From positions 124,001 to 188,000 of the forward strand of contig JAVEYW010000004.1 of NCBI GenBank assembly GCA_034003325.1: DNA of 64,000 nucleotides, written 5' to 3'. Source of the stretch: Desulfobacterales bacterium. GTDB taxonomy: Bacteria; Desulfobacterota; Desulfobacteria; Desulfobacterales; JAFDDL01. A program made the position numbers and the translations under genes. Below are positions 30,091 to 63,663 of the stretch, in pieces; the stretch's first letter is position 1; each line of letters begins with the position of its first letter. The notes below the pieces were generated by a model. That model was not told the origin of the DNA and ran no database searches. It saw only the letters and a list, made by a program, of their open reading frames with translations.

Positions 30091-30633
30091 TTAATGTTCT
30101 GCTCCGATCAGGCTCTCAACCGGCGGAATTTTCGTTGGATCAACTTCCCATCCCTGCATGATCAACCAGGATCTTTCACGCAATAGTTGTTCTTTGGCAT
30201 TGGAAAGAATATTTTCCCGCGCCACCATTTTGCTTTCTTCTTCACCGTCTGTAAATACTGCCTGAATTACGACTCCAACAACGTCCCTTAACAATAGAAC
30301 TGCATTGACAAGCTCCGTAGGCTCAGCAAGGGCACGACCCAGCACATCGTTAGCTACCGATTCAACAGATGCCAATTCTTCCAGCGCTTCTTTCGTTTTT
30401 AGCCCACCCTTAATTTTTTTTTTTAGCAATTCAGATAACCCAAGAATCCGTTCGAGCTCATCTCGGGTGTAACGAAAATGCAAACTGTTTCGCTGTTCCA
30501 TAATGCCAAGCATGCCCATTACCAGATTCGCTTGCTCTATCGCAAGTTTGTTATTCTGATTTATTGCAGGAATAATGGTATCTTTTAGCGATTTTATCAT
30601 GACAGTCATTTGAAAATCGGGCTGCATTTGCAT
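30091..30633 (-). CDS. Small protein coupled to APH-type kinase (possible LvaB analogue)
   Basis: A 180-residue, mostly helical soluble protein without signal peptide (MTVMIKSLKDTIIPAINQNNKLAIEQANLVMGML). Its ATG at 30633 follows the kinase stop codon directly (TGATATG) with AAGGAG inside the end of the kinase gene, so translation is coupled. In the Pseudomonas levulinate pathway LvaA, an APH-like kinase, needs the small partner LvaB to phosphorylate 4-hydroxyacyl-CoA; a small protein directly behind the kinase gene here suggests the same kind of complex. I cannot confirm homology to LvaB by eye. Confidence 0.6.
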   Translation of the reverse strand: MQMQPDFQMTVMIKSLKDTIIPAINQNNKLAIEQANLVMGMLGIMEQRNSLHFRYTRDELERILGLSELLKKKIKGGLKTKEALEELASVESVANDVLGRALAEPTELVNAVLLLRDVVGVVIQAVFTDGEEESKMVARENILSNAKEQLLRERSWLIMQGWEVDPTKIPPVESLIGAEH

Positions 30634-30634
30634 A

Positions 30635-31831
30635 TCATTCTCCTTTTTCGAGTAGTTCTGAAAGATCAGCCAGCAATACAGGAGCCACGCCCATAAGCCA
30701 CGCGACAAGGACATCTTGATGGGTTTTTCCCATTTTAGCGATTCGATACCCTGTTCCAAGCGTTATCACAATGCTCTTGTAAAGCGCCTGAATGCGGTAA
30801 AAATAGAGCGTTTTCGGGTTAACCTTTGTTCCGCTGGCTTTCTCATAAGCATCTATAAACTCTTTTTCAGGCAGCAATCCGCCTACCAGGAATTTTTTTC
30901 CATCTTCGTCCATATGCCCGAAAGCAGAAAGCATGGCCCATCCCAAATCCTCATGCCGGTCACCAATATGGGCAAGTTCCCAATCAAGCCAGGCCGTTAT
31001 TTTTCCATCTTCCTCCCTGAAAAGCCAATTCCCGGTGCGAAAATCTCCATGAACAATTGATAACCGATCGGTTATCGGCAGGTTGTCCCTCAGCCAGGCG
31101 GCAGTGTACCGCAATAAAGGCACATCTTCGCCCGCGTCTTCCTCCCAGACTCTCTCCCACCAATTCACGGCCCACAAGGCGGCTTCTGTAGTGCCGACTC
31201 TGGGGCAATCAAAATTTTTCAGCTCGAATTCCTTAAAATCGCATGTGTGTATTATTGAAAGATGCCCAATGAATTGCGGTGTCAGAATCTTTCTTAATCG
31301 GGTGCCAACATTCAACCCCACACCCGTGACGTTTCTAACAGCGTTTTTGGGTTTTGTAACACCCTCAACAAATCCGTAGATAAGCGCAGGAAGTGGCATA
31401 TAATCTTTTTGTTCATCTACCCAGTAAACGGGAGGAACCGGCACAGTTCCTTCAAACGCCTTAATAATTTGAAACTCCCGTGAGCGGCTGGATTCACAAA
31501 TCGATTCCTCAGGCTCCATTCGCAACACCATGGGCGTATGAACCTTATCGCCCGGGGGCCCCCACTCTAGAATAAACCCTACCTGCAACTTCGAGGCCCC
31601 CCCCGGCAACCAATCCACATCGGAAATTTTGAAAGGTTGATCGTATTTACTTCGAATAAACTGCTCTAAATTCTTGGACAACGATTCGAGAGTCAACGGC
31701 GAAAACATTTTCCCGGGTCTTCTATTCATTTTGCTGGTCAATATGCGATCGATTTCACTTTCTATTGGAAACCGTCGACGGATCGTTTCTATAAACTCCT
31801 TGCTCGGATTGTTTTTGTCAACTTTTATCAT
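30635..31831 (-). CDS. APH-family phosphotransferase (ACAD10/LvaA-like kinase)
   Basis: A 398-residue kinase-fold enzyme. The catalytic loop HGDFRTGNWLF and the metal-binding ITAWLDWELAHIGDRHEDLGW near 240-280 are the APH motifs; the N-lobe contains LQVGFILEW and VLRMEP. Relatives (ACAD10/11 N-terminal domain, bacterial LvaA) phosphorylate the hydroxyl of hydroxyacyl-CoA so that it can be eliminated, and they sit in catabolic clusters rather than in resistance cassettes. AAGGAGAG lies before the ATG. The small gene downstream is coupled to it. Resistance to aminoglycosides is unlikely given length and context. Confidence 0.82.
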   Translation of the reverse strand: MIKVDKNNPSKEFIETIRRRFPIESEIDRILTSKMNRRPGKMFSPLTLESLSKNLEQFIRSKYDQPFKISDVDWLPGGASKLQVGFILEWGPPGDKVHTPMVLRMEPEESICESSRSREFQIIKAFEGTVPVPPVYWVDEQKDYMPLPALIYGFVEGVTKPKNAVRNVTGVGLNVGTRLRKILTPQFIGHLSIIHTCDFKEFELKNFDCPRVGTTEAALWAVNWWERVWEEDAGEDVPLLRYTAAWLRDNLPITDRLSIVHGDFRTGNWLFREEDGKITAWLDWELAHIGDRHEDLGWAMLSAFGHMDEDGKKFLVGGLLPEKEFIDAYEKASGTKVNPKTLYFYRIQALYKSIVITLGTGYRIAKMGKTHQDVLVAWLMGVAPVLLADLSELLEKGE

Positions 31832-32380: not shown

Positions 32381-32824
32381 TTATTTGACAACAACTTTTC
32401 CCATTCCAGACATTTTTCCATCTTCGGACAACAACTTGTATTCGAATGTCCCGGACTGCGGAAACTGAAGCGAGGTTGTGGAGGCGTAATCCATAAAACT
32501 GGTTGAATAACACCCTTTGGAATCAAGAAAAAACCCAGCGATCCGCATATTCGGATTTAACACGACATCCTGGCATGTTTTCCCGTCTTCAAAAATTAAC
32601 TTGACTTCTCTCATTGAGACTGCGTTCATCCAGACAACAATGGCGTTTTTATTTACATTGACGGTTTCCGGTGACGGGATTAATTTATCCCCGCCTTCAG
32701 AAGAATTAATTTTTACCAATACCGTTTCCGGTTCATTAGTTGCGAACGCAGTTGATATGTTTGTCAACATCGCGCAAAAAAATATCACCAAAACTACGCC
32801 GACGGACAAATATTGTTTTTTCAT
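32381..32824 (-). CDS. Exported cupredoxin-like small protein
   Basis: A 147-residue protein with a signal peptide (1-26, MKKQYLSVGVVLVIFFCAML...AFA). The mature part is all-beta in appearance (VLVKINSSEG, VNVNKNAIVVWMNA, GTFEYKLLSEDGKMSGMGKVVVK), resembling the cupredoxin-like fold in which a beta-sandwich begins with a metal-site strand and ends GTFxY. The usual His-Cys-His-Met copper ligands are not in place; two Cys (GKTCQD, SKGCYS) may form a disulfide. Start chosen from AAGGAA upstream of ATG 32824. It follows the DUF1302 gene by 112 nt, with a hairpin between. Confidence 0.65.
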   Translation of the reverse strand: MKKQYLSVGVVLVIFFCAMLTNISTAFATNEPETVLVKINSSEGGDKLIPSPETVNVNKNAIVVWMNAVSMREVKLIFEDGKTCQDVVLNPNMRIAGFFLDSKGCYSTSFMDYASTTSLQFPQSGTFEYKLLSEDGKMSGMGKVVVK

Positions 32825-32893
32825 ATTCACATTCCTTTTAATAATATGAGTAAATTTCAATTCAGTGAACATGCCATTTCGGATCAGGTTTTC

Positions 32894-32936: not shown

Positions 32937-34412
32937 TTACCATCTCCAACCCACCTTAAAGTTCAACTCGCTTGCGGTTTCGATGTACGGCATCCATGGA
33001 GAAGCATTGTTCGTATCCCCCCAAATGCTCATTGACGTAACGCCCATGTACCAATGGTCATCAATGGTGTAATTGAGACTGAGATTGCACAAGGCAACAC
33101 CTTCAAAATCGTATAGCAAAAACAGCGACGGCGTAATTCTGCCATTCCAGAAATTTGTCTGAAGCACCAGGGTGGCTCGCCAATTATCCGGTACCGCTAC
33201 GGGGTATATCGACAGATCATCTTCAATACCGGAAATATGACTGTAGTATATTTGTAAATTGGTTACCAATGCTGAATCCGTGCCCGGCACCACCTGGGAA
33301 AAGTCCTTATCAAACCCCAATAACGCTTGATAGTGGTCATGCTCTGACCGGAGATTGGGCGATGACAGATCAAACGTCGCGGCTCCCTTTGTCAAGGACC
33401 CTTCCCCGCGGAAAACAAAGCCGCCATGATCAATGAAGGTGGCAAAAGAATATCCGTAGGTTTGTGCCCTGGGATGCGCCAGCGTCATGTATCCGTCCGT
33501 CGCAATGGATGTGGGGTCTAAAAGCAATCTTCCCCAAATCCCCTCATGCTGCCACCCGTCGAAATAGTATAAATAAATATTCGTATCGGCAATGACGGTG
33601 CCCAGCCGGACTCCCCCCTCCATATTCTCCACACCGCTGCTTCGCACCTGATCCTGCCTTACCTCAATCCCTATCTCTTCAAACCAAATCCCGTAAGGAG
33701 CCGCATCAGTGGGCACCATGGGCGCCCAAATATTGGGTCGGATATCCGGAATTGCGAGCAACTGCAGGTTAAATTCCTTGAAGGTACCGCCACCGCCGGT
33801 TTTCATATCCAACCTTCCCATCCACAAGGGGGCAAGAAGATCTTCAGGGTTTGCAAAAAACAATTGTCTTCGGTAGTCATTCGGGTTGACCACATTGATC
33901 AGGTTGAAACCGTCCGACTCGCCCCATTGCACGATCTGACGGCCCAATCGCAAGTTGGATCTGAACTGTGAGCCCGAAGGTTCCGCCACCATGTCGATAA
34001 AGATCTCCCGCATATCATTCTCAAACTTGAGATCATCCTTATCCAAATCAAATCTGCTATATCCACTGTCTCTGACACCCTTATATTCTTCCTGCCGAAG
34101 ATCAAAAATTGCATCATAGGCACCGCGATACCGAAAAAATATCTTCTCAATTCTATAATCGGGTTTTAGCCCGACATAATTGGGACTTACCGCAAGGTCA
34201 AGCAGCAACTCCTGCAAGGCTTGAACCCCTTCTGTTTGGTCCAGAAAACCATACTGCATTCCGGTGGTGTCCCGAAGCGTAAAGCTGGACTGCAAATGCC
34301 CGTGGAATTCCGTATCAAACCCACTGATCCTTGCCAACGCGGCGTTACCCATTTGAAAAAGGAACAAGCTTACAGCGAATGCTGCAACCACGACACTAAT
34401 TTTTTGACGCAT
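32937..34412 (-). CDS. DUF1302-family outer-membrane protein
   Basis: A 491-residue protein with a signal peptide (1-27) and a long series of amphipathic, aromatic-rich strands (FRYRGAYDAIFDLRQEEY, LRLGRQIVQWGESDGFNLINVVNPNDYRR) ending in FKVGWRW, a beta-barrel signature. DUF1302 proteins are porin-like and occur with DUF1329, MMPL and YCF48 genes in bacteria growing on hydrophobic compounds (steroids, terpenes, hydrocarbons, fatty acids), where they are thought to help such compounds cross the outer membrane. GAGGAGGGG precedes the ATG. It lies 135 nt downstream of the MMPL gene on the same strand. Confidence 0.85.
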   Translation of the reverse strand: MRQKISVVVAAFAVSLFLFQMGNAALARISGFDTEFHGHLQSSFTLRDTTGMQYGFLDQTEGVQALQELLLDLAVSPNYVGLKPDYRIEKIFFRYRGAYDAIFDLRQEEYKGVRDSGYSRFDLDKDDLKFENDMREIFIDMVAEPSGSQFRSNLRLGRQIVQWGESDGFNLINVVNPNDYRRQLFFANPEDLLAPLWMGRLDMKTGGGGTFKEFNLQLLAIPDIRPNIWAPMVPTDAAPYGIWFEEIGIEVRQDQVRSSGVENMEGGVRLGTVIADTNIYLYYFDGWQHEGIWGRLLLDPTSIATDGYMTLAHPRAQTYGYSFATFIDHGGFVFRGEGSLTKGAATFDLSSPNLRSEHDHYQALLGFDKDFSQVVPGTDSALVTNLQIYYSHISGIEDDLSIYPVAVPDNWRATLVLQTNFWNGRITPSLFLLYDFEGVALCNLSLNYTIDDHWYMGVTSMSIWGDTNNASPWMPYIETASELNFKVGWRW

Positions 34413-34547
34413 AACTCTCCCCTCCTCTTTTTATGTGATTCCTCATTCACGTTCACTGCCAAGCCTCTTTTGCTTATTCTTTTCTTTTCTATTTACCCTA
34501 TGAATCCTATCGGCTTTCAGGTCGCTATTAATTCATAGACGCATGGG

Positions 34548-36983
34548 CTATCCAACTGCAATTGCAGTTTTATTTATAGGTTCCGTCGTCCCCATTCGCT
34601 TGACAAAATTGGGTTTAAAAACCGCCGTCAGGGCCGGCAAAAATACAATGGCACCGATCATATTGAACACCATCAAGACAAGGATCAATATCCCCATCTC
34701 CGCTTGAAACTTGATGGATGAAAAGAGCCAGGGAATCAGCGCGAGCATCAGCGTAATCGCAGTGAACATGATGGTTTTTCCGGTGGTAGTCAGCGCCATT
34801 AGTTTGGCCAGTTCAAAATCGTTTGTTTTGGCGCACTCCTCTTTTAGTCGGCTCATCAAATATATGCCATAGTCGATTCCAACACCAACGCCGACAGAAG
34901 CCACCGGTAAGCTGTCAATGTTCAGATCAATATGATTCAACATCATAAACATCTCACAGACCACCTGGGAAACGTAAACCGGGAGTATCAGGATCAGCGC
35001 CGCTTTCCATGAGCGGTAGGTAATAGCACATAAAAGAAAAATACTAGTGAAAATGACGATAAAAATCGCCCAGTAGGACCATTCCACTTCCTCATTTACG
35101 GCAGCTAAAATCCCTAAAATACCACCGGCCAACTTGATATCTACTTTTGAATTGGGATCCGCATTGACCGTTTGCGCAAATTCCGATGTTTTTTCAATTG
35201 CCTGTTTGATGGTTGCATGGTTGTAATTTCTGAAATACGCCGTGACATTGGAGTCGGTGTAATCCGGCATGCTGACCTTCATGTCCATCTCGCCCGGCGC
35301 CATGCCACCTGCAAGCATAAAGTAGATCTGCCCCAGGGTTTTGCTGTCTTGCGGCACCATCTCCCATTTGGGAACCCCGTCATGATACATTCGGTTGATA
35401 TTCCGAACCATGTCGGCAAGGCTGGCGGTTCCGCCGACATTGGGGATATTGTTCTGCATGAAGTCCCCGAGCTTTTCCATTGTGTTCAGGGTCTGTTGAT
35501 CCTTGATGGCACCTTTCTCCCTGCCCTTCAGCACCACCACCAGTTTGGAGTCACCCAGGAAGCCTTCGTTCATGGTCTTGGCGGCCACATTATAAGGATG
35601 GTCCGAATATAAAATGGCCCCGCCGGCACTCGAATCCCCGATTTTCAGATGCATGGCCGTGTAAAACCCGCCGGACACCAAAACAATAATGACACCCAAG
35701 GTCACCCATTTCATTCTTGGTCCGGACAACCCCAGGATAAAGTCCATGATTTTCTGATAAACAATACTCCAAACCGAAAATTTTCTTTTCCCCAGCCAGT
35801 TTCTGACTTTAACCTTTTCCTCTATCGGCGGCGCCGGCAGAAAGGAAAGTATAATCGGATTCAGGATGGTAACGCACATCAGAATGCTGATTACCCAGAA
35901 ACTGGCGACATAAGCCAGCTTTTGCATCAGCGGGATGGTGGCGATACAGATGGTCAGACACCCAAGCCCGTCCGTAAACCCGCCGACGAGGCATGGTGCG
36001 AAAACCGCCGAATACGCTTTTACAATGGCTTTGTTTTTGTCTCCTATGACGGCGAACTCCTGGTGAAATCGATCCATGCACTGGCAGGAGTGCGACAGGG
36101 CTCTTGCGGAAAGCAACACCGGAACGACCAGCAGCAATGGATCGATATTATATCCCATCACGCCTGCAAAGCCCAATCCCCAAATGCCACTCAGGATGCC
36201 AGAAACAACCGGAATCACAAGCCCTCTAAGACTTCTAAAATACACGATCAGCGTGACCATCATCAGCAGCATGGTTACCAGCAATACAAGCATCAATTGG
36301 AGTTTGTAGTGCGCCATCCATGCATAGAGCATGGGATACCCGCTGACCTGGCATTCATGGGCTTCATCCGACACACTTGCGGTCAGTTCATTGACGGTGG
36401 TAAAAAGATAATCGAAGTCCAGGCCTTCCTCCCAGAAGGCTGCATACACGGCCGCGGATTTATCGTCGAGGGAGATGAAAAACCCGCGAATACCGTCTTG
36501 CCCGTAGACCGTTTTCCTGAAAATGTCGCACTCTTCTTCGTTTGAAGGATATCCCTTTACCGCCGGATAGGTTAACGGCTGAACATCCACGCCGAGCTGC
36601 CCGATCATGATCTGTTTGACCTTGGGATGGGTGGCGGAGGTAACCTGAAGCGGATTGACGCCTTTTATTTTAAGGACGCCTTGCGTCAATTCGTCCAACT
36701 TACGCATGGTGACCGGATTGTAGATGTCCTTGCCGTCCGTTCTTTTTAGAACGATGGTCATCTCGTTGGCGGATCCGAACATCTTTCGAAACTCTTTATA
36801 CAACTGGATATATTGATGTTTCGGTGGATAAAGTTCAAAAAAGTTCGTCTCAATCTTGAGTTTGAAAAATATCTCCTGGGCAAAAAACAAGGTTAATACA
36901 ATCATTCCGGCCATGACCCAGTATCGATACTTCAACTGCCGTTCAACGATGCTGGCCCAGAATTTTCCGCCGCTCTCCTCCAT
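34548..36983 (-). CDS. RND/MMPL-family transporter
   Basis: An 811-residue inner-membrane protein with two repeats, each a transmembrane helix, a periplasmic loop of about 180-200 residues and a bundle of five further helices (first bundle about 230-400, second about 650-790). Motifs include VIYFRSLRGLVIPVVSG and GVGVGIDYGIYLMSRL, the MMPL/HpnN/SSD-like core. Relatives move lipids and hydrophobic molecules, usually out of the cell or across the envelope. Start follows AAGGAG. In this neighbourhood it is likely to act with DUF1302, DUF1329 and YCF48 proteins in trans-envelope traffic of the growth substrate. Confidence 0.92.
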   Translation of the reverse strand: MEESGGKFWASIVERQLKYRYWVMAGMIVLTLFFAQEIFFKLKIETNFFELYPPKHQYIQLYKEFRKMFGSANEMTIVLKRTDGKDIYNPVTMRKLDELTQGVLKIKGVNPLQVTSATHPKVKQIMIGQLGVDVQPLTYPAVKGYPSNEEECDIFRKTVYGQDGIRGFFISLDDKSAAVYAAFWEEGLDFDYLFTTVNELTASVSDEAHECQVSGYPMLYAWMAHYKLQLMLVLLVTMLLMMVTLIVYFRSLRGLVIPVVSGILSGIWGLGFAGVMGYNIDPLLLVVPVLLSARALSHSCQCMDRFHQEFAVIGDKNKAIVKAYSAVFAPCLVGGFTDGLGCLTICIATIPLMQKLAYVASFWVISILMCVTILNPIILSFLPAPPIEEKVKVRNWLGKRKFSVWSIVYQKIMDFILGLSGPRMKWVTLGVIIVLVSGGFYTAMHLKIGDSSAGGAILYSDHPYNVAAKTMNEGFLGDSKLVVVLKGREKGAIKDQQTLNTMEKLGDFMQNNIPNVGGTASLADMVRNINRMYHDGVPKWEMVPQDSKTLGQIYFMLAGGMAPGEMDMKVSMPDYTDSNVTAYFRNYNHATIKQAIEKTSEFAQTVNADPNSKVDIKLAGGILGILAAVNEEVEWSYWAIFIVIFTSIFLLCAITYRSWKAALILILPVYVSQVVCEMFMMLNHIDLNIDSLPVASVGVGVGIDYGIYLMSRLKEECAKTNDFELAKLMALTTTGKTIMFTAITLMLALIPWLFSSIKFQAEMGILILVLMVFNMIGAIVFLPALTAVFKPNFVKRMGTTEPINKTAIAVG

Positions 36984-37111
36984 CGGTTGACTCCTTAAAA
37001 TTTATTTACTTAGGACCCAATATGCCGGCAGTGAACCGCCGTTTCATATTAGGATATTCTCGGGAATACCCGGTGATGATGTGATGACCACTATACAGCG
37101 CTTTAGCGCAT

Positions 37112-38125
37112 TTATTCGCCGGCCCCGGGCCAAATCAATGTTGTGCCGTGAACATAGGAAATAGATCCCCGCGCACCGCCGATTATAAACTGCTGCGGGC
37201 CTTTGAGTTCAATGCATTGCAACCAGTTCGCCCGAAGCTCGACCGGCACCTTAATGGGTTTCCAATTGTCCCCGATCCAGACGCCCCCTATCGGGCATTC
37301 CTTTTTCGGCTCCGGGACCTGATAAAAAATGGTGCCGGCATCTCCAACGATGAGCGCTATTCGATCATTGAACCTTATATTATAAAGGGACTCTTTCGTG
37401 ATGGTGCTGCTCTCCCAGGTTTTCCCCCCATCGGTGGTTCGAAGGACAAGTCCCTCAATTCCAACGGCCACTCCGTTACCACAGTTATCAAAGTCGATCG
37501 CGGTTAATGTGCCGTATGCCAGTGCCTGTTTATCCCAGGTCTTTCCGCCATCCGTGGTGTGGTATATTCTCCCCATTTCAGTGGCCATCCAGGCCTCTTC
37601 GGGACCTGTCAGTTTAATGCAGTACAGCAGGATATCCTCTTCCAGGGACACGTTTCGCCATGTCTTTCCGCCATCATTTGTGGCAATAATCTTCCCCCAG
37701 TCTCCGGCGGCCATGCCGTGCCGATCATCATAAAAGTCCAGGGTCAGGAGCGCTTGATCCGCAGGGGTATTCACTTTTTCCCACGTCTTTCCCGCATCGT
37801 CCGTCGCCATTACCAGCCCCTCTTGCCCGACGATGATGCCGCGGGTCTCGCTCAGAAAAACGACGCCGAAAAGGGACTGGTCGGCACCAATACGCATCCG
37901 CTCCCATGTCAGGCCGGCGTCTTGCGTCCGATAAAGTAACCCGGACTTTCCGCACACCCAGAAGTTCTGGTCATCAACGCGGCAGATATCATAAAAATTA
38001 TAACTCAACGATTTGGCGGGGATTCTTCCCGGTTTGGCATCGGCAAGATCCCAATGTGAATTCATCCCCACGAAACACCACAACACCCAAACAAGAAGTA
38101 TACTTTTCCCATTAAACGATCTCAT
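37112..38125 (-). CDS. YCF48/BNR-repeat secreted protein
   Basis: A 337-residue exported beta-propeller. After a signal peptide (about 1-30) there are at least five repeats of the type TxDGGKTWE (TQDAGLTWER, TDDAGKTWEK, TNDGGKTWRN, TTDGGKTWDK, TTDGGKTWES), the Asp-box/YCF48 motif of plant HCF136, a photosystem II assembly factor. Bacterial versions lie beside DUF1302, DUF1329 and MMPL genes. The start is ATG 38125 with AAGGAA 9 nt upstream; the frame extends to a TTG 6 codons earlier. Function is probably assembly or scaffolding in the periplasm (inference). Confidence 0.87.
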   Translation of the reverse strand: MRSFNGKSILLVWVLWCFVGMNSHWDLADAKPGRIPAKSLSYNFYDICRVDDQNFWVCGKSGLLYRTQDAGLTWERMRIGADQSLFGVVFLSETRGIIVGQEGLVMATDDAGKTWEKVNTPADQALLTLDFYDDRHGMAAGDWGKIIATNDGGKTWRNVSLEEDILLYCIKLTGPEEAWMATEMGRIYHTTDGGKTWDKQALAYGTLTAIDFDNCGNGVAVGIEGLVLRTTDGGKTWESSTITKESLYNIRFNDRIALIVGDAGTIFYQVPEPKKECPIGGVWIGDNWKPIKVPVELRANWLQCIELKGPQQFIIGGARGSISYVHGTTLIWPGAGE

Positions 38126-38159
38126 CACGACATTCCTTCTCAATTTCGTCTTGCCATGC

Positions 38160-38630
38160 TTACGGTTTTTTGTTTTGACACGTTGAAAAGCTTTGAAAGC
38201 ACGCTTCGTTTCTTGACATATAGGAATCGCTCAGCCGATGGGGATTCACCGTCAATACGGGCGCCGAAGACTTGCTGATGACATCTTTGGCGACACTGCC
38301 AAAAAGAATATCTTTCAACCCTTGCCTTCCATGCGTGCCGATGATCACCATGTCAATTTGATGGTTGTCGACATATTTGATGATTTCAGCCGCCGGATCA
38401 CCTGCTACAAAATCGGACCGCGCAATGGTGCAATTTGCCAGGTTTTGCGTGATAAATTCTTCAAGCCACTCGCCCGCTTCCTTAAGCCGCATCTCAATGT
38501 ACTGATCGATCGCCGGCTCTACCCTTAATACGAAAACCTTGGAGTCGCATAATCTGGAATAATATTCCACGAAAGGCGCGACTTTTTCCGACACATCGCT
38601 GAAACGTACTACAGGGAAAAGTATATTCAT
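38160..38630 (-). CDS. Universal stress protein (UspA family)
   Basis: A 156-residue cytoplasmic nucleotide-binding protein. The C-terminal GTHGRQGLKDILFGSVAKDVISKS matches the ATP-binding signature G-x2-G-x9-G-(S/T), so it should bind ATP and dimerise. VDNHQIDMVIIG precedes it. Usp proteins modulate stress survival or act as small nucleotide-dependent regulators. It is placed within the DUF1329-YCF48-MMPL-DUF1302 series, 35 nt upstream of the YCF48 gene, which is unusual for a general stress protein. Confidence 0.92.
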   Translation of the reverse strand: MNILFPVVRFSDVSEKVAPFVEYYSRLCDSKVFVLRVEPAIDQYIEMRLKEAGEWLEEFITQNLANCTIARSDFVAGDPAAEIIKYVDNHQIDMVIIGTHGRQGLKDILFGSVAKDVISKSSAPVLTVNPHRLSDSYMSRNEACFQSFSTCQNKKP

Positions 38631-38751
38631 TTGATATCCCTCTGTTCACCCAACAAAATTATCTCTTTATTGAATACATTATAATTTTATTTATCGAATC
38701 AACGCTGCCCCCTTATTAAAGAATGAGGCAGCGTTGATCCACTGTTTCACA

Positions 38752-40131
38752 TTACCGGCTCTTGGTTCCCATCATCGACTCGGAGAAATTGCCTTGTCTG
38801 ACGTTTGGATCACCGTAAGTATGCCGGTATTCATTTCCGTCCAAATTACGCGCATAATGAGTGGTACAGGCATGCTGGGTTTTATCATCCACGATCAGGA
38901 AGAAGCTTCGGGAGCAGAAAGTCCGGTAGGCCTTGCCGTCATCACCGCCCCACACCGCGGGAACCGGCACGGTCACCAGGGTTTTCCAGTAAGTAAGGGC
39001 CTTATCGTAGGCAATTTTGTAAACACCGCCGACAGTGGTATCCTCATACATGATCTGTCTGCCGTAATTGTAGTACTTATCATGCGGCATTCCTTCGATG
39101 ACAAACATGTCTCTGGGAACCCACACCACGTTGGTCGGCATCCAGGCCAGTTCCTTGTTACCCGGCACCTCCCAAGCCGCTTTAACGGACTTGCGACGCA
39201 TATCCATTGCCCAGGCCCCGCTTTCATTTTGAAACCCCTTTATCGGCTCATCCAGCGTATTTTCCTGCAGCGGCATCAGAATTATTTTGCGGTCAAGCAC
39301 TTTCCACGTCATGGACTCGTTCTTCCCTTCCCATCCGTTGGAATCATCCAGAACAAAATCGGAACCTGCGAATGGATCGGAGCGGGCGGCCCCGGAGAGC
39401 TTTTTCACCCTTCTGATGGAAGGAACATAGGCAAAATAGTCATCGGTTTGGAATTCAAGATATCGTTTTGACAATGTCATCATGCCGTTCAAATCCGGCG
39501 GTTGACTGATAAAATACAGCTCCAAATAACTATAATCGTTTGGGTTTTGCTGTTGTCCGTCGGGTCGGTTCCAGAAAAAGTAACGACTAAAATTTCCCGC
39601 CAACCCGCGCTCCATCTTTTCTGAATTGACCCAGTTAATATCAAAATCAACAACCGTTGCACCCGATCTGGAAACATCCAGAAAGACATTGTGCATGATT
39701 TTGATCCCCGCGTCCGGGTCATTCTTCCATTCTTCATAGATGGTCGGAAACGGACGCCCCTCAATGTACTTGGGAATTTCTCCGCTACGTTTGTCAATAA
39801 CGGACTTATTTTCATTCAACGCATATTTGCCCGCATTTGCCGCACATCGTTTTTTATATGCGTCATCAGCGGAAAATTCGTATTGAATTTCCCCGATTTT
39901 CATTTCAAGCTTACCGTCCTTGACCCATTCAACCATGGATGGCGGCAGTAAATCTTTCACCGATTGCCAGTTCGAAGCATTGACGGTATCCCCCGGTTTG
40001 ACGGGTATCTGTTCGAACAGCTTTGCCTGCACCTCTTGATAATTGCTCCCTGCATACAGCGAACTGAAATAACCGGACACCACCAGTAGCAAAATTGCGA
40101 TCAACAATCTTGCAAAGCCCTTGACTCTCAT
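38752..40131 (-). CDS. DUF1329-family exported protein
   Basis: A 459-residue protein with a signal peptide (1-27, FARLLIAILLLVVSG...). DUF1329 members have a half-open beta-barrel like LolA/LppX and are thought to bind hydrophobic ligands in the periplasm. Features include IMHNVFLDVSRSGATVVDFDINW, VRRVKKLSGAARSDPFAGSDF-type residues near 255-275 and DRKIILMPLQENTLDEPIKG. It is the first gene of the minus-strand envelope series. The start is set at ATG 40131 behind AGGGGGG; the frame extends 13 codons upstream. Confidence 0.87.
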   Translation of the reverse strand: MRVKGFARLLIAILLLVVSGYFSSLYAGSNYQEVQAKLFEQIPVKPGDTVNASNWQSVKDLLPPSMVEWVKDGKLEMKIGEIQYEFSADDAYKKRCAANAGKYALNENKSVIDKRSGEIPKYIEGRPFPTIYEEWKNDPDAGIKIMHNVFLDVSRSGATVVDFDINWVNSEKMERGLAGNFSRYFFWNRPDGQQQNPNDYSYLELYFISQPPDLNGMMTLSKRYLEFQTDDYFAYVPSIRRVKKLSGAARSDPFAGSDFVLDDSNGWEGKNESMTWKVLDRKIILMPLQENTLDEPIKGFQNESGAWAMDMRRKSVKAAWEVPGNKELAWMPTNVVWVPRDMFVIEGMPHDKYYNYGRQIMYEDTTVGGVYKIAYDKALTYWKTLVTVPVPAVWGGDDGKAYRTFCSRSFFLIVDDKTQHACTTHYARNLDGNEYRHTYGDPNVRQGNFSESMMGTKSR

Positions 40132-41436
40132 AGCTTGCCCCCCCTTTTGGTTTAAGATTAACATGACCACTCTTCTCCTTTCCCTGTATACCTAACTATC
40201 AACTGAATGATTATTTTCGATATTTATCGCATTTTCAAATGGTTTTGCCCTGTTATCTTCTTTGTATTTGCCATCTGCTTGTTTGCCAAATTGACGTGGT
40301 GATAATGAATTAGGTTGTAACTGACCAGTATCCAGGAGACAGAATTCAGAATAAATACAACTGAAGGCAGCCGGATTCATACAGTTGCATGAAGATATTG
40401 GTGCTTTGTGTTTCATTCTGAATTCTGGCTCCTGAATTCTGAATACCTAAGTAGTTACAATAGGTTTTTTTTAAGTCATCGCTCTACTGAGCATATTTTT
40501 TTGCACTTCGATAACCCACCAGCAGATAGCTATCGCATTGCTTATTCGTGTGCCATCAGATTCGGCAGCGAGAGAATGTATTTTTTATAAAATGGGGATT
40601 TTTTATTTGTGACTGTTATTGTTGATTAGCACGAATTATGCCATAAGCTTTAATTCATTCGCGCCCATACATCGTATGGGTTGTATATACTGAAATCCTG
40701 TGAGATTTACACAGAACCTCGTGCTTCTCGGGTGGTAACATTCATCATGCTTTTGAAAATGCCAGCTCGGCTGTGATTTTGCAAAATAGAAAGGGTGTTT
40801 TGAATTCAACACATTGTATTTATTACTGATAAATATGCATTATGAATATGCAACCCATATGTACGCTACTAAAAAGGCTTATAATACCCATGTGCGCGAA
40901 TCGCACATAAAGCGCTTTTCTCGCACATCACGCGCTTACTAATTTTCATTGTAACGCCAATTTTGACGATTTCGTAAAAAGCCCAATATCCGCGTTGCGC
41001 TGCATCCCTCATCATTGCGGCGGACCATAAGTACGCCTCATTCTTCTGGATTTTGCGCGCCTTGATCTTGAGCTATTTACAAAGTCGTCTGAAATCCGAA
41101 TTTTTTCGAGTCCTTCAATTTTCCCTACCTTATTTAAATAGCCTTCGCGGCATCCATCTATCGGCTGCCAAATGAATTTCTACATTAATTTTTTTGAACG
41201 ATCTTATTGCAACAACAACGTTGTATTAATTTGACCGGCTGCTATGTCTCACAAATCTTTTATATGAATTGTCATCGACACATGCGCTTACTCAAATTGC
41301 CGGCCTGCTTTTTTTTTAACACCCAAGGAGACACCTAACTCTCTAAAATCATACTTTCTATCCGCTTAACGGCCACAAAGGAGGCAGTGGCGTATCATTT
41401 CCATTTTTCTGATGCCGCAGCCTGTCGAAGATATTT
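40132..41436. other. Long AT-rich spacer between divergent units
   Basis: About 1.3 kb without a supported gene between the DUF1329 operon and the dikinase-like gene. It contains a perfect CCCATAC-ATC-GTATGGG hairpin near 40664-40681, a pair of GCGCGAATCGCACA/CTCGCACATCACGCGC words near 40890-40930 and the palindrome ACAACGTTGT at 41215-41224. Promoters of both divergent units should lie here. Confidence 0.45.
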
Positions 41437-54190: not shown

Positions 54191-56770
54191 TTATTTTTCT
54201 TCCAGTTCAATATCCAGATCATCAAATTGCGCCGCGCCGAAACTCTGGTCGGTTCTGGCAATAATCGTATTCTGGCCGTAAGTCGATACATCCACGAACC
54301 GCGCGCTATAACCCGCTACTCTCACCAGAAGATCTTCATGCTTTTCCGGCTCCACCTGGGCGGCTCGCATCTCATCCGAACTGACGCAGTTAAACTGCAC
54401 ATGGTCGATCTTCATGTCATGCCAGGTCTTCATGTACGCATGCCAGATATCAAACCCGTGCTTGCTGCGCATCAGCGGCAGATTCAGCCGCTGGTTCAGC
54501 AAATTGAACTTGAATTTGGAGGAATCGATCTTGGCCAGGGATCTTAGCACCGCCGTCGGCCCCAGTTTGTCCGTGCCGGCCATAGGCGATACGCCGCCGT
54601 CATCGCAAGCCTCGCCGCCGAATCGCCCGTCCGGGGTCGGTCCTGAAATCGAACCGATCACCATGTACATGGCCACGGCCTGAGAACCTCCCAAGGGGTG
54701 TTTTCCGGAATAGGTGGTAATTTGATTCAGTTTCGCCGCCATAATATCTTCATAAAAGGCTTTTACGACCGCATCCGCATAATCATCATCATTGCCCCAC
54801 TTGGGCGCATTGGCGAAATCCAGCCGCATCTCTTCATAGCCTTCCCAATTGGCATGAAGCGCCTGAATCAATTGATCCATCGTATACTTCTTGTCGTCAT
54901 AAATCAGCTTCTTCATGGCAATCATGGAGTTACACGCCACAATGGCCGTATGCACCTGCACCCACGGGTTCGGCAATTCGGTTATGCTGCACGCATCAAT
55001 CCCCAGCTCCACGCAGCCGTCATCAAGGCTTGAAAGAAAGGGAAGTTGCATGTATTGCGCCTGAAGCACTCTCGACACATCCTTGCTGCGCCAGAAAAGA
55101 TCAAAGCAATAATCATTTTGAGCTTTAAAAGCATTCCACAACTCTTCAAAGGTTTTGAAATTTCGTGGATCACCGGTTTTAGGCCCCATCTGACGGTTGG
55201 AATAGGACCAGTCAAAACCGTCACTCAGGGTCAGCTCCAGAATCTTGGTCGGAAAGGTGCCACCGCCGCCTTCGGTCCTCACCTTGGGGGCTTTTCGCCG
55301 GCCGACATGCCCCGGACTCATGCACAATACCAGCGCCCAGTCTCTGGCTTCCTCCAGCGTGGCACCGAAATTATTAACCAACTGCTCCGTGTTCAGTTCA
55401 TCGTTTTTGATGGACGGATAGCCCAGACCGTCCCGAATGCACTCGAATACCAGGCGCTTCGTTTTTTCCCGGCCGATGGCGTTCCACCTGAAACCGATCG
55501 ACGGCTCGGTGGTTCGAATATTCTTGGCCGCCTGCAAAATGGCATCGGTCATGTCATTGCACCCATCCGTTCCGTCCGCATTCAGCCCGCCGATGGACAA
55601 GATGAACAAATCGTTTGATCCGGCAAATGCCGCGCGGTGCTGCCTGCCCTTGCCGCACCCGTGCTCGGAAATCTTCAGCCGCTCGCATTCCACCAGCTCC
55701 ACGACATCGGCATGCGTCATGGGCTGAAAGGACTTTTCAATGACGCTCTTCTGATAATAAGGCCAGAGAACCTTGTCCTCCTTGTGGGCATACCCGCTGG
55801 CATACCCCTCAAGGGCATGGCACATCAGATAGGTAAACCATTTGGCCTGCATCGCATCCCGAAGCCCCTTGGCCGGCTCGGCCGGTATTCGATGGCAGAT
55901 GTTGGCAATATCGAGCAACTCGGCCTTTCGCTTGGGGTCCGTCTCAAAATTTTCCGCAACGATTTTGCACAACCGGCCATGGCGCTGCGCCCAGTGAATC
56001 ACCGCCTTGTCGACAAGAATCATTGCTTCCCAGTTGTTGATCTTTTCCATCAGCGGCAACCGCTCCGGACCGTTCCAGTTGGGGGCTTGCAACTCTTTCA
56101 TGGCCCTTTTGATGTTCTCTTCGCACATCGCGATGCGCTTGAGCAGCCCATCCTCATTCACCGTCTCATAGGGCGGCACCGTGCTGTTATACGCATTGGC
56201 AAAGTTCGGCGACTCCATGGTCGAGAACTGATACATCTGGTCCAGCTCTTCCCGCGTAAAAAATTTCTCCCCCTGATGCACCAGGCTGTGCTTTTCCCAA
56301 TAAGAGAGAATCTCCCGCGCTTCCTCCACTTCTTCAGGGCAATAGGGGCTGTTCACCAAATCCATGACCGTCAGATAGGATGACTCCGGATATAGTGGAA
56401 TCTTTTCCGGATGCTCGGCATTAAAACCTACAATCAGCTCATCTTCCTGAAGCACAAGCGTGCATTTATTTAACAGCGCGGCCGTACTCATCGCCCTTCT
56501 GATCACCTGCGGTTGGCCCGATGATTCTTTGTACCCCTCCGTAAAATAGCGCATTCGTTCAATACCGCATTTCAGGTTCGGATTAACAAACTCTCCGGCG
56601 GCGGTATGTTTAAACCGGCATCTGGCTTTCAGCCGTTTGGTTCTCTCCGTACTCGGATGCGCGAGCGTTCCCGTTAACATCTCATCGGGAATATTTGCCT
56701 CTTCCGGGTTATCTAGTGGAAATTCAATTTTCCGTCCTTTGTACTCGACGGGATCGGCGACTCTTGTCAT
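54191..56770 (-). CDS. Glycyl-radical fumarate-adding enzyme, alpha subunit (BssA-like)
   Basis: The 859-residue catalytic subunit of an X-succinate synthase, which adds a methyl or methylene carbon of a hydrocarbon to fumarate. Active-site C483 lies in VLCMSPGHVGRRK, the fumarate-binding Arg corresponds to R498 in KVRTEGGG, and the glycyl radical is G820 in RVAGYSARFVD. Regions such as GFDIWHAYMKTWHD and PSTERTKRLKARCR agree closely with benzylsuccinate synthase, and length is the same as BssA (about 860). Alkylsuccinate synthases are more divergent, so an aromatic substrate (toluene, xylene, cresol, cymene or methylnaphthalene) is more likely, but which one cannot be told. AGGAGG precedes the ATG; the BssC-like gene lies 35 nt upstream. 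Confidence 0.93.
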   Translation of the reverse strand: MTRVADPVEYKGRKIEFPLDNPEEANIPDEMLTGTLAHPSTERTKRLKARCRFKHTAAGEFVNPNLKCGIERMRYFTEGYKESSGQPQVIRRAMSTAALLNKCTLVLQEDELIVGFNAEHPEKIPLYPESSYLTVMDLVNSPYCPEEVEEAREILSYWEKHSLVHQGEKFFTREELDQMYQFSTMESPNFANAYNSTVPPYETVNEDGLLKRIAMCEENIKRAMKELQAPNWNGPERLPLMEKINNWEAMILVDKAVIHWAQRHGRLCKIVAENFETDPKRKAELLDIANICHRIPAEPAKGLRDAMQAKWFTYLMCHALEGYASGYAHKEDKVLWPYYQKSVIEKSFQPMTHADVVELVECERLKISEHGCGKGRQHRAAFAGSNDLFILSIGGLNADGTDGCNDMTDAILQAAKNIRTTEPSIGFRWNAIGREKTKRLVFECIRDGLGYPSIKNDELNTEQLVNNFGATLEEARDWALVLCMSPGHVGRRKAPKVRTEGGGGTFPTKILELTLSDGFDWSYSNRQMGPKTGDPRNFKTFEELWNAFKAQNDYCFDLFWRSKDVSRVLQAQYMQLPFLSSLDDGCVELGIDACSITELPNPWVQVHTAIVACNSMIAMKKLIYDDKKYTMDQLIQALHANWEGYEEMRLDFANAPKWGNDDDYADAVVKAFYEDIMAAKLNQITTYSGKHPLGGSQAVAMYMVIGSISGPTPDGRFGGEACDDGGVSPMAGTDKLGPTAVLRSLAKIDSSKFKFNLLNQRLNLPLMRSKHGFDIWHAYMKTWHDMKIDHVQFNCVSSDEMRAAQVEPEKHEDLLVRVAGYSARFVDVSTYGQNTIIARTDQSFGAAQFDDLDIELEEK

Positions 56771-57511: not shown

Positions 57512-58507
57512 TTACCCGCAGCTTTCTTTTTGCGCCTCTGAACACGCCGGTTCTATTTCCCCGACGCCAACCATACCGCCGATGGTCAGACTTTTGATGC
57601 CGGCTTTTTTCAACTCTCGTGCAAGCGGCAACACTTTTTCCCGCGGAAGGTCTTCGCTATCCTTATAGCGATAACGATCGCTACGGCCTAACAGTGTGTA
57701 TTTATTTTCGCCGTAAATATGAAAGGGCAGAATATCCACACCGTTCAGTTGATCCGCAAAACGGCCCAGATATTCTGCATATAACTGATAATCCTCATCA
57801 GAATCATTGAAATTCGGAATAATGGGAAGATGAATTCTAACCGTTGCCCCTCTCAAGAGGAGTTTTTCTATGTTTGAAAGCACCAGATGAAGCGACCCGC
57901 CGATTGCCTCCCGGTACTTATCCGCATTGAGCGTTTTTATATCCACGAGGAACAGATCAACGAATTCCAAAAGCGGTTCAATCTTATCGAATTTTTGCAC
58001 GCAGCTGGTTTCGACAGCCACATGAACCGCTTCCTTTTTGATCCCTTTGGCCAATTCAAGCGTAAGTTCAGGAAAAAACAGGGGCTCCCCACCGCTGATG
58101 GTAACGCCACCCCCACTATTCTTAAAGAACAATTTGTCCGCAACAGCCATTTTGATCAGTTGATCAAGGCTGTATTTAGTCCCCACACCGGTTCTTGCCT
58201 TTGCCGGACAAGCCTCAACGCATTTCAGGCATCCAATACATTTTTCCCGGTCCATCTTGATGATAGGCTCATCACTGCCCGGCAAAATCTCCATGGTGGT
58301 GGCGCCCGTCGGACATACCTCGGCACATTTGCCGCAACGGGTGCATTTGTTTTCATAAACATATATTTCGGCCATGGGGTTTTGCGTTTCAGGATTATGG
58401 CACCAGGGGCAATGCAGCGGACACCCTTTGATAAAAAGGGTTGTCCGAATACCGGGCCCGTCCTGTAAACTATATCTCTGAATTTCGGTTATTAGACAAT
58501 CAGACAC
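57512..58507 (-). CDS. Glycyl-radical enzyme activase (BssD-like, radical SAM)
   Basis: A 331-residue radical SAM enzyme that installs the glycyl radical. C29, C33 and C36 in KGCPLHCPWCHNPE form the CxxxCxxC SAM cluster site; two further ferredoxin motifs, CTRCGKCAEVCP (about 55-66) and CIGCLKCVEACP (about 90-101), are the insert present in BssD but absent from short PFL activases. GGGVTISGGEPLFFP is the SAM/glycine-rich motif. The start is GTG 58507 with GAGGA six bases upstream. A sigma-54 promoter lies 140-155 bp upstream. It is the first gene of the D-C-A-B series. Confidence 0.93.
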   Translation of the reverse strand: MSDCLITEIQRYSLQDGPGIRTTLFIKGCPLHCPWCHNPETQNPMAEIYVYENKCTRCGKCAEVCPTGATTMEILPGSDEPIIKMDREKCIGCLKCVEACPAKARTGVGTKYSLDQLIKMAVADKLFFKNSGGGVTISGGEPLFFPELTLELAKGIKKEAVHVAVETSCVQKFDKIEPLLEFVDLFLVDIKTLNADKYREAIGGSLHLVLSNIEKLLLRGATVRIHLPIIPNFNDSDEDYQLYAEYLGRFADQLNGVDILPFHIYGENKYTLLGRSDRYRYKDSEDLPREKVLPLARELKKAGIKSLTIGGMVGVGEIEPACSEAQKESCG

Positions 58508-60519: not shown

Positions 60520-63500
60520 ATGGATGATAACAACCTTGACCTTTTTATAGAGGCCCTTCACGAGCAAGAGATGGATGCGCTGCAACTTGCCGTGCTTTTG
60601 GGCGATAATTTTTCGCTGGATATTATCCTGGACATGATTGACATCAGTCCGTCAAAGCTTTTGGACCTGATAGATAAATTATTCATCAACTTCTTGATTA
60701 AAAACAAACCCGACGGCATCAAAGGCTCCTACGTCTTCACGCCTTCCCAACTCCCCGCACGCGTCATCGCGTCGATGCCGAACGACAAAAAAAAGCTCTA
60801 CATTTCCAACATCATCAATTACTTCGAGCGTCAATTCCCGCAAACCAACGAAAAAGCCAAGGTTTTAGTTGGCCTTATTCTGCGATTCAAACAAGAATTG
60901 GACAACTTACAATACTTAAAAAAAGCAGCCGATATCCTTGTTTCCGATCACCAAACCGAACAAGCCCTCAACCTCTACAGGGAAGTCATTGACAGCCTGC
61001 TGGGAAAAAACCGGGAACCCATGGAAGACGTTCTTTTTATTGACACTGTCATCGCCTATGCGCCCATTGCCACCAATATCTATCGGCCGGATGATATTTT
61101 CCCCGTTCTCGAAAAAGCCTTGAATCTTTCCACCAACCTTCAAAACAAACGGGCGGAGGCCATGGTGGAATTTTGTTTGGGGCGGCTTTTTCAGCGGCAG
61201 GGAAAAAGCGCCAAGGCCGCTATCCATTATGACAGGGGATGGTCTCTATCGCAAAACATGAACGATGAGGGACTTAAAAAACTCGCCGCAAAGCTTTATG
61301 CGCTCGCGCTATTTTGGCAGGGCCGCATCACCGAAGCAACCCGCGTTTACGAGGAAACACTGTCGAACATCGAGGATATCTCTTCGGATTTACGGGATGT
61401 TTGGTCCTACCTGCTCCTTGCCTTGTGCTACGGCATTGCCGGCAGAACCGGGCGAGGGATTGGTCTAGCCGAAGCCTTGATGAGCAGAGCCGTCTCCAAG
61501 GGATATAAAAAAACAATCGCCTTTTCACACACCATTATCGCCATGCTCCTTTTGGATATCCGCAAGTTTGAGGAAGCTGAACCCCATATTAATAAGGCCA
61601 TTGAACTAGGCGAAAAAATCAAAAGCGATTTTGCGCTCTTCCTGGCAAAGCTTTGCAAAGGATTCATTGAATACAACAAAGGCAATATCCCAAAATGCAA
61701 AGAATTACTGGAAGCCGGGCTCGACCACCTTGCGGACAAATCAACCTTTCACTATTCCAGCCCGTGGCTGATAGAAGTTCTGTTGGGGTTCCATCAAGCC
61801 AATTTAGAGCCCCCCAAAGGGTATTCCTTTACTTCGGAATTAAATCGACTACTGGCATGGCCGGATATTTACATGAGAGGGGCTGCGTTGCGATACAGCG
61901 CGTTATCAAAGGATCTTAATAAAGGCCCCTTTCATAAAATCGAAAGCCTTCTGTTTGAAAGCGCAGAGCTCCTTCAAAAAGCAGGCGCTTCAATCGAGTT
62001 GGGAAAGACCTATGCCGAAATTGCAAAATTATATATTAAAAAGAATGACTTGACCAAAGCAACCGAATTCGCGGAAATCGCCTATCGCAACCTATCCGAA
62101 ATCGACAATACCCTTTTTCCTCCGCAACTATCGTTTTTGATTACGAAAAAAACCATTGAACACCACAAGGAAGAGGGCATCAGAGCCCTTGAAAATGCGA
62201 TTGACTGTCTACCGGATTTCGAAAAATACATCGGTCAGGTGGTAACCATTCTGACCGATATGTTCGGTGCGGAACGGACCGCCATTCTCCTGGCAAAAAG
62301 AGACATGCCGAAATCCCTAAGCGTTGTGGCAACCCGCAATTTCACGGCGGAAGAAGTCGAGCGGCTCGGAATGGACGAGTTGCAATCCCTCTTTTTATCA
62401 CTGGTTCAAAACGGTCCCGTCGTCATCATCGACCAGCAAAAGACAACCAAATTTACTCAATTGGCGCAACACCATATCACCTCCAAATCCATCGCCTTAA
62501 CCCCCATCACCTCGAATCGAACGGTAATCGGATTGATATACATCGACAACCGGCTGCTGAAAGGCATCTTTACCAAAAGAGACAAAATAACGCTCAAAGC
62601 CATTTCCGGTCAAATTTCATTGGCATTAAAAACCAGTGATCTTTATGATAAATTCGGGAATCTGCATTTCGACATTTCAGACGAGAATCAGAAAATCGCC
62701 CTTTTTGAAGAGACCGAATCCGCATTCCCCACCATAATCGGAAAAAGCAAAATACTTAAAGACTTGCTTTTAAAGGTTAAAAAGGTTGGCAGATCCGACA
62801 CGACCGTTCTCATATATGGAGAAACCGGGGTTGGAAAGGAATTGATCGCCAAGGCCATTCACCAATACAGCGACCGATCCGACAAGCCGCTCATTTATTT
62901 TAATATATCCGCTCTTTCCGACAACTTGATCGCAGCCGAACTTTTCGGCTACGAAAAAGGTGCCTATACGGGCGCAGTTTCTTCCAAACCCGGGCGGTTC
63001 GAACTGGCCAATGGCGGCACTATCTTTCTGGATGAGATAGGGGAGCTTTCCATGGACTCCCAGGTCAAGCTGCTTCGCGTCTTGCAGGAGGGTAAATTTG
63101 AGCGGGTCGGCAGCAACCAACCCATCTATTCCGATTTCAGAATCATAGCCGCTACAAACAAAGATCTGAATCAAATGATACAAAAAGGGCTGTTCCGCTC
63201 CGACCTGTATTACCGCATCAGCAGCTTCCCTTTGGAAATCCCGCCGTTGCGAGAGAGAAAAGAAGATATTCCCTATCTCATCACTTATTTTATGAAAAAA
63301 TACGCGCTCAAAAATAAAAAGAGCATCAAAAAAATATTTACGCATGACATGGAAAAACTTCAGGCTTATGCCTGGCCCGGCAATATTCGGGAATTGGAGC
63401 ACCTGATTGAGCGGGCCGTCATCATCTCTACCGGCGAGTATCTGATCATACCGGATTTTCTGCCCGATTATGGCGGGGACAACTCGCTTCCAAATGAAAA

Positions 63501-63663
63501 CCGGGAGGGTTTTCTGCCCCTGGAAGACATTCAGCGGCGGCATATTCTCAGAGTATTAGAACATACAAAAGGAAAAATCAGGGGTGAGGACGGCGCCGCC
63601 AAAATCCTCGGATTGAAACCAACGACGCTTGAATTCCGCATTAAACAGTTAAATATCAAATAA
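60520..63663 (+). CDS. Sigma-54 activator with TPR and GAF sensor domains
   Basis: A 1047-residue bacterial enhancer-binding protein without receiver domain. Residues 1-90 form a helical, winged-helix-like start; about 110-530 are tetratricopeptide-type repeats as in MalT/LuxR-like sensors; a GAF domain follows (about 566-710, [15 protein letters not shown]); the AAA+ domain has Walker A GETGVGKE (767-774), a GAYTGA loop (814-819) and [10 protein letters not shown]; the C-terminal Fis-type helix-turn-helix ends at KQLNIK. So it should activate sigma-54 promoters in response to a small molecule bound by GAF or a protein bound by TPR. Divergent from the dehydrogenase gene; the nearest sigma-54 promoter is that of the bssD-like gene, 1.9 kb away. 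Confidence 0.92.

Follow-up and report, generated by a model that had tools for sequence, protein, structure and literature searches.

The gene pair described here raises the question of which substrate is phosphorylated by a kinase that is encoded together with a small protein without a name. Both genes are located on the minus strand of a stretch of 64,000 nucleotides of a Desulfobacterales contig (in the following called the window). The kinase gene (30635-31831, ATG start, 398 amino acids) is followed by the partner gene (30091-30633, ATG start, 180 amino acids), and the junction CTCGAAAAAGGAGAATGATATGCAA contains the kinase stop codon TGA, a single T, and then the ATG of the partner. An AAGGAG is present within the kinase frame and ends six bases upstream of this ATG; the ribosome-binding site AAAGGAG in the kinase end and the TGA-T spacer that precede the partner ATG have the approximate bounds 30634-30648 (minus strand). 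It was thus verified that stop and start codons abut (TGATATG, with the exact join TGA-T-ATG) and that the ribosome site lies inside the kinase gene, as had been stated in the original prediction. In the paralogous loci L005 and L007 the genes are likewise joined as TGATATG, and the end of the kinase gene contains a purine-rich ribosome site. A longer partner frame with a TTG start and 222 amino acids, which appeared in the list of open reading frames, was rejected, because the aligned relatives favour the ATG of the 180-residue form.

The kinase matched the Pfam family APH (PF01636) with an E-value of 9.8e-19, above the gathering score, and the alignment revealed that the catalytic motifs HGDxxxxN and LDWE are intact. 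The match and the junction together bear out that an APH-like kinase is translationally coupled to a small partner, in a layout like that of lvaA-lvaB. In the PDB, ACAD11 (E 2e-10) and the steroid kinase 25-HSK of Sterolibacterium denitrificans (9fsg, E 2.5e-8) were matched. The window kinase is 22-24% identical to three LvaA-like proteins and 22.8% (about 23%) identical to 25-HSK, and its segments D[FY]RTGN and LDWE...EDLGW are more like those of the LvaA-like kinases than like those of 25-HSK. An additional N-terminal segment of about 50 residues (DKxxPS...RRRFPxExEID...LTxKMxRR...) is common to the closest relatives of the window kinase and is missing in LvaA-like kinases, in 25-HSK and in the 340-residue kinases of the same genome. 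In a kinase tree, which was a quick one with flagged long branches, the partner-type kinases (25 entries) formed one side of a branch with an SH-aLRT support of 97, and the five LvaA-like kinases formed a separate group with a support of 100; 25-HSK and the 340-residue kinases were likewise apart from the partner type. Therefore, the window kinase does not group with LvaA, and the low identity and the separate position argue against orthology with 25-HSK.

The partner occurs four times in the window genome: besides the window protein there are three paralogues, which are 42-54% identical to it. Three of the four copies follow a kinase of the 398-residue type with the TGATATG junction; at the fourth, locus L006, 3,980 nt separate the partner from the closest kinase. 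The distribution of the partner is patchy, as it was absent from 95 relatives of the same order and from 290 other genomes of the class that were examined. When 84,980 named genomes were scanned for the pattern, 11 further loci emerged, which belong to a Sterolibacteriaceae MAG (two loci), Gemmatimonadetes, Aromatoleum toluclasticum, Pseudomonas borbori, Rhodoferax, a Burkholderiales MAG, Aquabacterium, two Nevskia MAGs and a Proteobacteria MAG, and plasmid searches added partners in Rhodococcus, Novosphingobium, Sphingopyxis and Sphingomonas. The highest copy numbers were eight in the Sterolibacteriaceae MAG, which is the only one of 62 genomes of its family to contain the partner, and seven on a Novosphingobium plasmid. 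One partner copy in the A. toluclasticum genome (locus L042) carries an in-frame TGA, which may stem from a sequencing error or from decay. On the Rhodococcus opacus plasmid pRho-VOC14-L the cassette is present at both linear ends (L023 and L025) in opposite orientation and with identical scores, as expected of terminal inverted repeats.

The 37 partner genes considered come from 17 genomes or plasmids, and for 35 of them a kinase of the same family was found at a distance of at most 44 nt, on the same strand and in either order. Of these 35 gaps, which were measured between BLAST alignment ends and not annotated gene ends, 29 do not exceed 15 nt. The two exceptions are the L006 copy and L080, a partial match at which no kinase was found. 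The count does not include repeated records of one location, the second, mirrored copy on the Rhodococcus plasmid, two further Novosphingobium plasmid matches without a retrieved locus, or a second Sphingopyxis strain. In a Gemmatimonadetes MAG (locus L012) partner and kinase are naturally fused, with no stop codon between them. A second fusion at the Nevskia locus L018, suggested by the length of the reading frame, was ruled out, because the two genes overlap at TAATG in different frames. Furthermore, the pairwise distances of kinases and partners were correlated (r 0.835 for 20 pairs, and r 0.590 for the 17 pairs that remain without three Novosphingobium pairs), and neither value was reached in any of 5,000 permutations. 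All five within-genome partner swaps that were tried lowered r. Shared ancestry adds to such a correlation, so that it is support and not proof that the two proteins belong together. Kinase and partner are a real, conserved and hitherto unnamed two-gene unit.

The partner itself was not matched by any Pfam or NCBIfam model above cut-off, and its best E-value against PDB sequences was no lower than 0.11. An AlphaFold2 model (mean pLDDT 88.9) predicted five long helices. Comparison of the model with solved structures retrieved generic helical bundles only (best Z 9.2 over 77 residues) and is uninformative for folds of this kind.

A precedent for the chemistry exists in S. denitrificans. According to the available parts of two publications, 25-HSK attaches a phosphate to the tertiary hydroxyl at C25 of steroids, and this phosphate is then eliminated by a distinct lyase to yield an alkene (PMC8449060, PMC11061730); in the available part of the 2021 paper the lyase gene was called unknown (PMC8449060). 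The 25-HSK gene was located via a published primer, and its product is identical to PDB chain 9fsg over all 379 residues. Like the window kinase, 25-HSK is of the APH type and its gene adjoins DUF1302, RND and YCF48-like genes, yet no partner was found next to it or anywhere in the S. denitrificans genome. Therefore, the window pair was read as a kinase of this kind with two components.

A protein of about 320 amino acids with DUF7064/DUF7065 is encoded within 1.5 kb of 21 of the 37 partners and in the same retrieved stretch as 26 of the 37, and both counts are lower bounds, because many stretches are only 1.5 kb wide. Of 13 genomes or plasmids that carry the partner, 12 contained DUF7064, but none of 42 genomes of one family that lack the partner did (Fisher p 3e-11); this zero covers the DUF7064 subfamily only, because the model PF23212 found no match in S. 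denitrificans, for which PDB entries name a 25-phosphosteroid lyase (25-PSL), and thus misses some members. The thirteenth genome, the Gemmatimonadetes MAG, has a longer relative with a weak DUF7065 match directly downstream of the pair. The window genome contains four DUF7064 genes, all on the three contigs of the other three pairs, and two of them directly adjoin a kinase. In the 64-kb window itself no DUF7064/5 gene was detected (best match E 0.36, not above noise), so that the window pair differs from these cassettes in having no adjoining lyase gene. A literature search retrieved no paper on DUF7064 or DUF7065.

A motif that presumably points to AttH/CrtC had led to the expectation of such a likeness for the DUF7064/5 protein. 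The profile score against CrtC was 39.2, compared to at most 18.0 in 60 shuffles, and the predicted structure (pLDDT 86.4) has a two-domain lipocalin-like fold, with AttH (2ich) matched at Z 26.5, rmsd 3.0 and 280 aligned residues. It was followed by 25-PSL (9g2i, Z 25.6; 9g4c, Z 25.4; by VIA Z 25 over 276 residues; a further entry is 9fzn), then by Diels-Alderases and kievitone hydratase (Z 23-25), and thereafter the values dropped to Z 9. As the fold is also like that of AttH, Diels-Alderases and kievitone hydratase, it does not prove lyase chemistry. Foldseek ranked 25-PSL first (E 1e-14). On the sequence level, a profile of 14 DUF7064/5 members matched 25-PSL with an E-value of 3.8e-21, and a profile of the nine short members, without the longer L012/L014-type, L016, L020a and L036, also ranked it first, albeit more weakly (E 0.001; next match 0.61); a single member of the window genome retrieved nothing from the PDB sequences. 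Two longer members directly follow a kinase-partner pair, and one of these two, the 355-residue P. borbori protein, aligned with 25-PSL from end to end (residues 3-353, E 1.3e-33). The invariant RDxSxGxR aligns with RDRSWGVR of 25-PSL. Judged from full-length sequence, the longer members in the related cassettes are homologues of 25-PSL, and the short members, according to the model, share its fold and the RDxSxGxR segment. Genes for Y_phosphatase3 (tyrosine-phosphatase-like) proteins are present near pairs in seven stretches (L010, L013, L015, L020, L022, L073, L074); their products would perhaps hydrolyse misphosphorylated alcohols.

The neighbourhood of the window pair is characterized by genes for envelope proteins. 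Upstream of the kinase gene, and also on the minus strand, genes for the following proteins are located: a 163-residue protein without a Pfam match, the link of which to the pair is uncertain (32381-32872), a DUF1302 protein (AmeA-type outer-membrane protein, 32937-34412), which recurs beside related pairs, an RND/MMPL transporter (AmeD-type, 34548-36983), a YCF48-like beta-propeller protein that is putatively AmeC-type by position and fold class (37112-38143), a universal stress protein in the same gene run (38160-38630), and a periplasmic LolA-like DUF1329 protein (AmeB-type, 38752-40170). The region 32937-40170 thus resembles AmeABCD of Castellaniella defragrans, which likewise comprises DUF1302, DUF1329, COG4447-type propeller and HAE3 RND proteins. 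In the available part of the respective paper AmeABCD is described to act in monoterpene metabolism and a kinase-partner pair is not mentioned (PMC6394551), so that the likeness concerns the neighbours of the pair only. At a larger distance, the window encodes the alpha subunit of benzylsuccinate synthase (BssA/TutD, 54191-56770, 1,226 bits to TutD) and a BssD-like activase (57512-58507), and the organism probably degrades toluene anaerobically. The predicted setting of anaerobic hydrocarbon degradation was thereby found, but bssA is about 22 kb away and nothing was seen that links it to the pair. A long sigma-54-type regulator of about 1,050 residues (60520-63663) has a counterpart of similar size in locus L005 (L005:8471-11629), and one of the two adjoins kinase-partner genes.

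Taken together, the window pair is, with a probability of roughly 60%, an alcohol kinase of two components that belongs to a cassette for ATP-dependent dehydration and acts on hydrophobic alcohols and not on hydroxyacyl-CoA, with both the complex and the substrate being putative. Relatives of kinase and partner recur in unrelated bacteria beside relatives of the steroid-dephosphorylating enzyme, which probably indicates an ATP-driven removal of hydroxyls from oily molecules. A hydrophobic substrate is suggested by the AmeABCD-like neighbours, the steroid precedent, and the catabolic neighbours of plasmid relatives, including P450, alcohol dehydrogenase and alkane monooxygenase genes. The alcohol, presumably isoprenoid- or steroid-like, would depend on the AmeABCD-like envelope proteins for its uptake or movement. 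The APH-type subunit, which carries the predicted ATP-binding and catalytic residues, would phosphorylate its hydroxyl, while the 180-residue helical subunit would bind the kinase and probably help to present or shield the hydrophobic substrate. A DUF7064/7065 lyase would then eliminate the phosphate and leave an alkene, at the expense of one ATP per dehydration; for the window pair this role would fall to one of the four DUF7064/7065 proteins whose genes lie outside the window. The helical partner is a new part of this proposed cassette. The chemistry of phosphorylation followed by elimination, which had been predicted, is considered to be supported, with the reaction itself being putative.

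The originally predicted substrate fared differently. If the pair acted like LvaA-LvaB, it would phosphorylate a hydroxyacyl-CoA, and an acyl-CoA dehydrogenase-type enzyme would later carry out the elimination. The 4-hydroxyvaleryl-CoA kinase LvaA-LvaB shares with the window pair the gene layout of a small partner directly after an APH-type kinase, and LvaB bound LvaA in a pulldown (available part of PMC6692424, citing Rand et al. 2017). The two kinase segments mentioned above are nearer to LvaA-like kinases than to 25-HSK, ACAD11 was matched in the PDB, and in Aromatoleum an acyl-CoA dehydrogenase gene (L013:13217-14416) is located at a distance of about 2.7 kb from the pair. However, the partner, with 180 residues versus 118 of LvaB, has no detectable relation to LvaB. 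LvaB was recognized as DUF6285 (PF19802) via lva-type operons of Pseudomonas genomes and plasmid records naming lvaB under the match. DUF6285 was found in none of 28 partners at E-values up to 10, a search in which the HMMER filters drop most weak matches, and had no match in the window genome. The profile comparison of partner and LvaB with hhalign gave a score of 17.0 (P 0.062), whereas up to 22.0 was reached among 60 column-shuffled controls. No convincing signal was thus obtained from Pfam, from reciprocal HMM searches or from hhalign when judged against shuffled profiles, and LvaB had no match among PDB sequences. A match of the divergent Novosphingobium partner L024 to the LvaB profile (E 4.2e-4 among about 2,200 reading frames searched) was discounted, because it is alanine-rich and shifted relative to the N-terminal motif that is shared. 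A descent of the partner from LvaB is thus not supported, and any homology would be remote. The separate branch of the partner-type kinases also speaks against an LvaAB-like function, as does the neighbourhood: a Pfam scan of the 19 neighbouring window proteins (21 including the pair; 21.4-46.1 kb) detected no LvaC-like acyl-CoA dehydrogenase, neither LvaC nor LvaE was found beside the window pair, and the recurrent neighbours of related pairs are DUF7064/5 proteins and not LvaC. The kinase domains of ACAD10/ACAD11, the substrate of which is 4-hydroxyacyl-CoA according to the available part of PMC12440821, belong to the same superfamily, but the window kinase has no fused or adjoining acyl-CoA dehydrogenase domain. 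Because no acyl-CoA dehydrogenase was found among the window neighbours scanned and relatives of the 25-phosphosteroid lyase recur beside the pair elsewhere, hydroxyacyl-CoA is an unlikely substrate.

Two other readings retain an alcohol as the substrate. The DUF7064/5 protein could be a hydratase, cyclase or carrier, and the phosphate could later be hydrolysed, e.g., by Y_phosphatase3. The equal nearness of its fold to AttH and kievitone hydratase, the weak profile relation to CrtC, and the Y_phosphatase3 relatives in seven stretches agree with this, but the closest solved relatives, both by sequence and by Foldseek E-value, are the 25-phosphosteroid lyases, which makes it rather improbable. 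Alternatively, the pair, linked to the AmeABCD-like exporter, could serve detoxification or tolerance: a toxic hydrophobic alcohol would be phosphorylated so that it can be exported or stored, and no dehydration would take place. This would fit the occurrence of DUF1302, DUF1329, RND and YCF48-like genes next to the pair in the window and next to several related pairs, as well as the role of AmeABCD in monoterpene metabolism. It would leave the lyase-type third gene unexplained, and several relatives are located among catabolic genes, so that detoxification appears quite improbable.

It is tempting to speculate, although the odds are slightly against it, that a widespread and hitherto undescribed class of two-component alcohol kinases exists in at least three named phyla, each with a helical subunit of its own and usually a 25-PSL-type lyase. 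Such systems would enable the dehydration of unreactive hydrophobic alcohols at the cost of one ATP, with or without oxygen, and the four to eight copies in some genomes would serve to remove several different hydroxyls of one polycyclic or isoprenoid substrate. ATP-dependent alcohol dehydration has so far been described in one steroid pathway. If the proposal is true, the strategy would occur much more widely, its kinase would depend on a helical subunit of its own, and its lyase relatives would be proteins that now bear DUF numbers only; moreover, an ATP-driven dehydration route would be added to the catabolism of hydrophobic compounds of the bss-carrying window organism. DUF7064/DUF7065 and the nameless 180-residue family would then have a testable function. 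The combination of kinase, partner and DUF7064/5 also provides a search handle for catabolic islands for hard-to-degrade compounds, several of which are on plasmids.

Some further genes near related pairs were recorded. The Rhodococcus ruber cassette is followed by the gene of another kinase, which has an ecdysteroid kinase-like (EcKL) domain (L071:14652-15737). At locus L006 a flavocytochrome c/ketosteroid-dehydrogenase-like FAD protein (L006:8421-9935), with an adjoining small multihaem-like protein, is encoded next to a kinase gene and a DUF7064/5 gene. On contig C31 of the window genome two 340-residue APH kinases flank a 174-residue protein (L005:13520-16167), an arrangement that was absent from 240 other genomes of the class that were searched and from plasmids. 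The 174-residue protein matched the partner profile with an E-value of 2.3e-4 and ranked next behind the true partners, and it is possible that these three genes are a second, divergent kinase-partner module.
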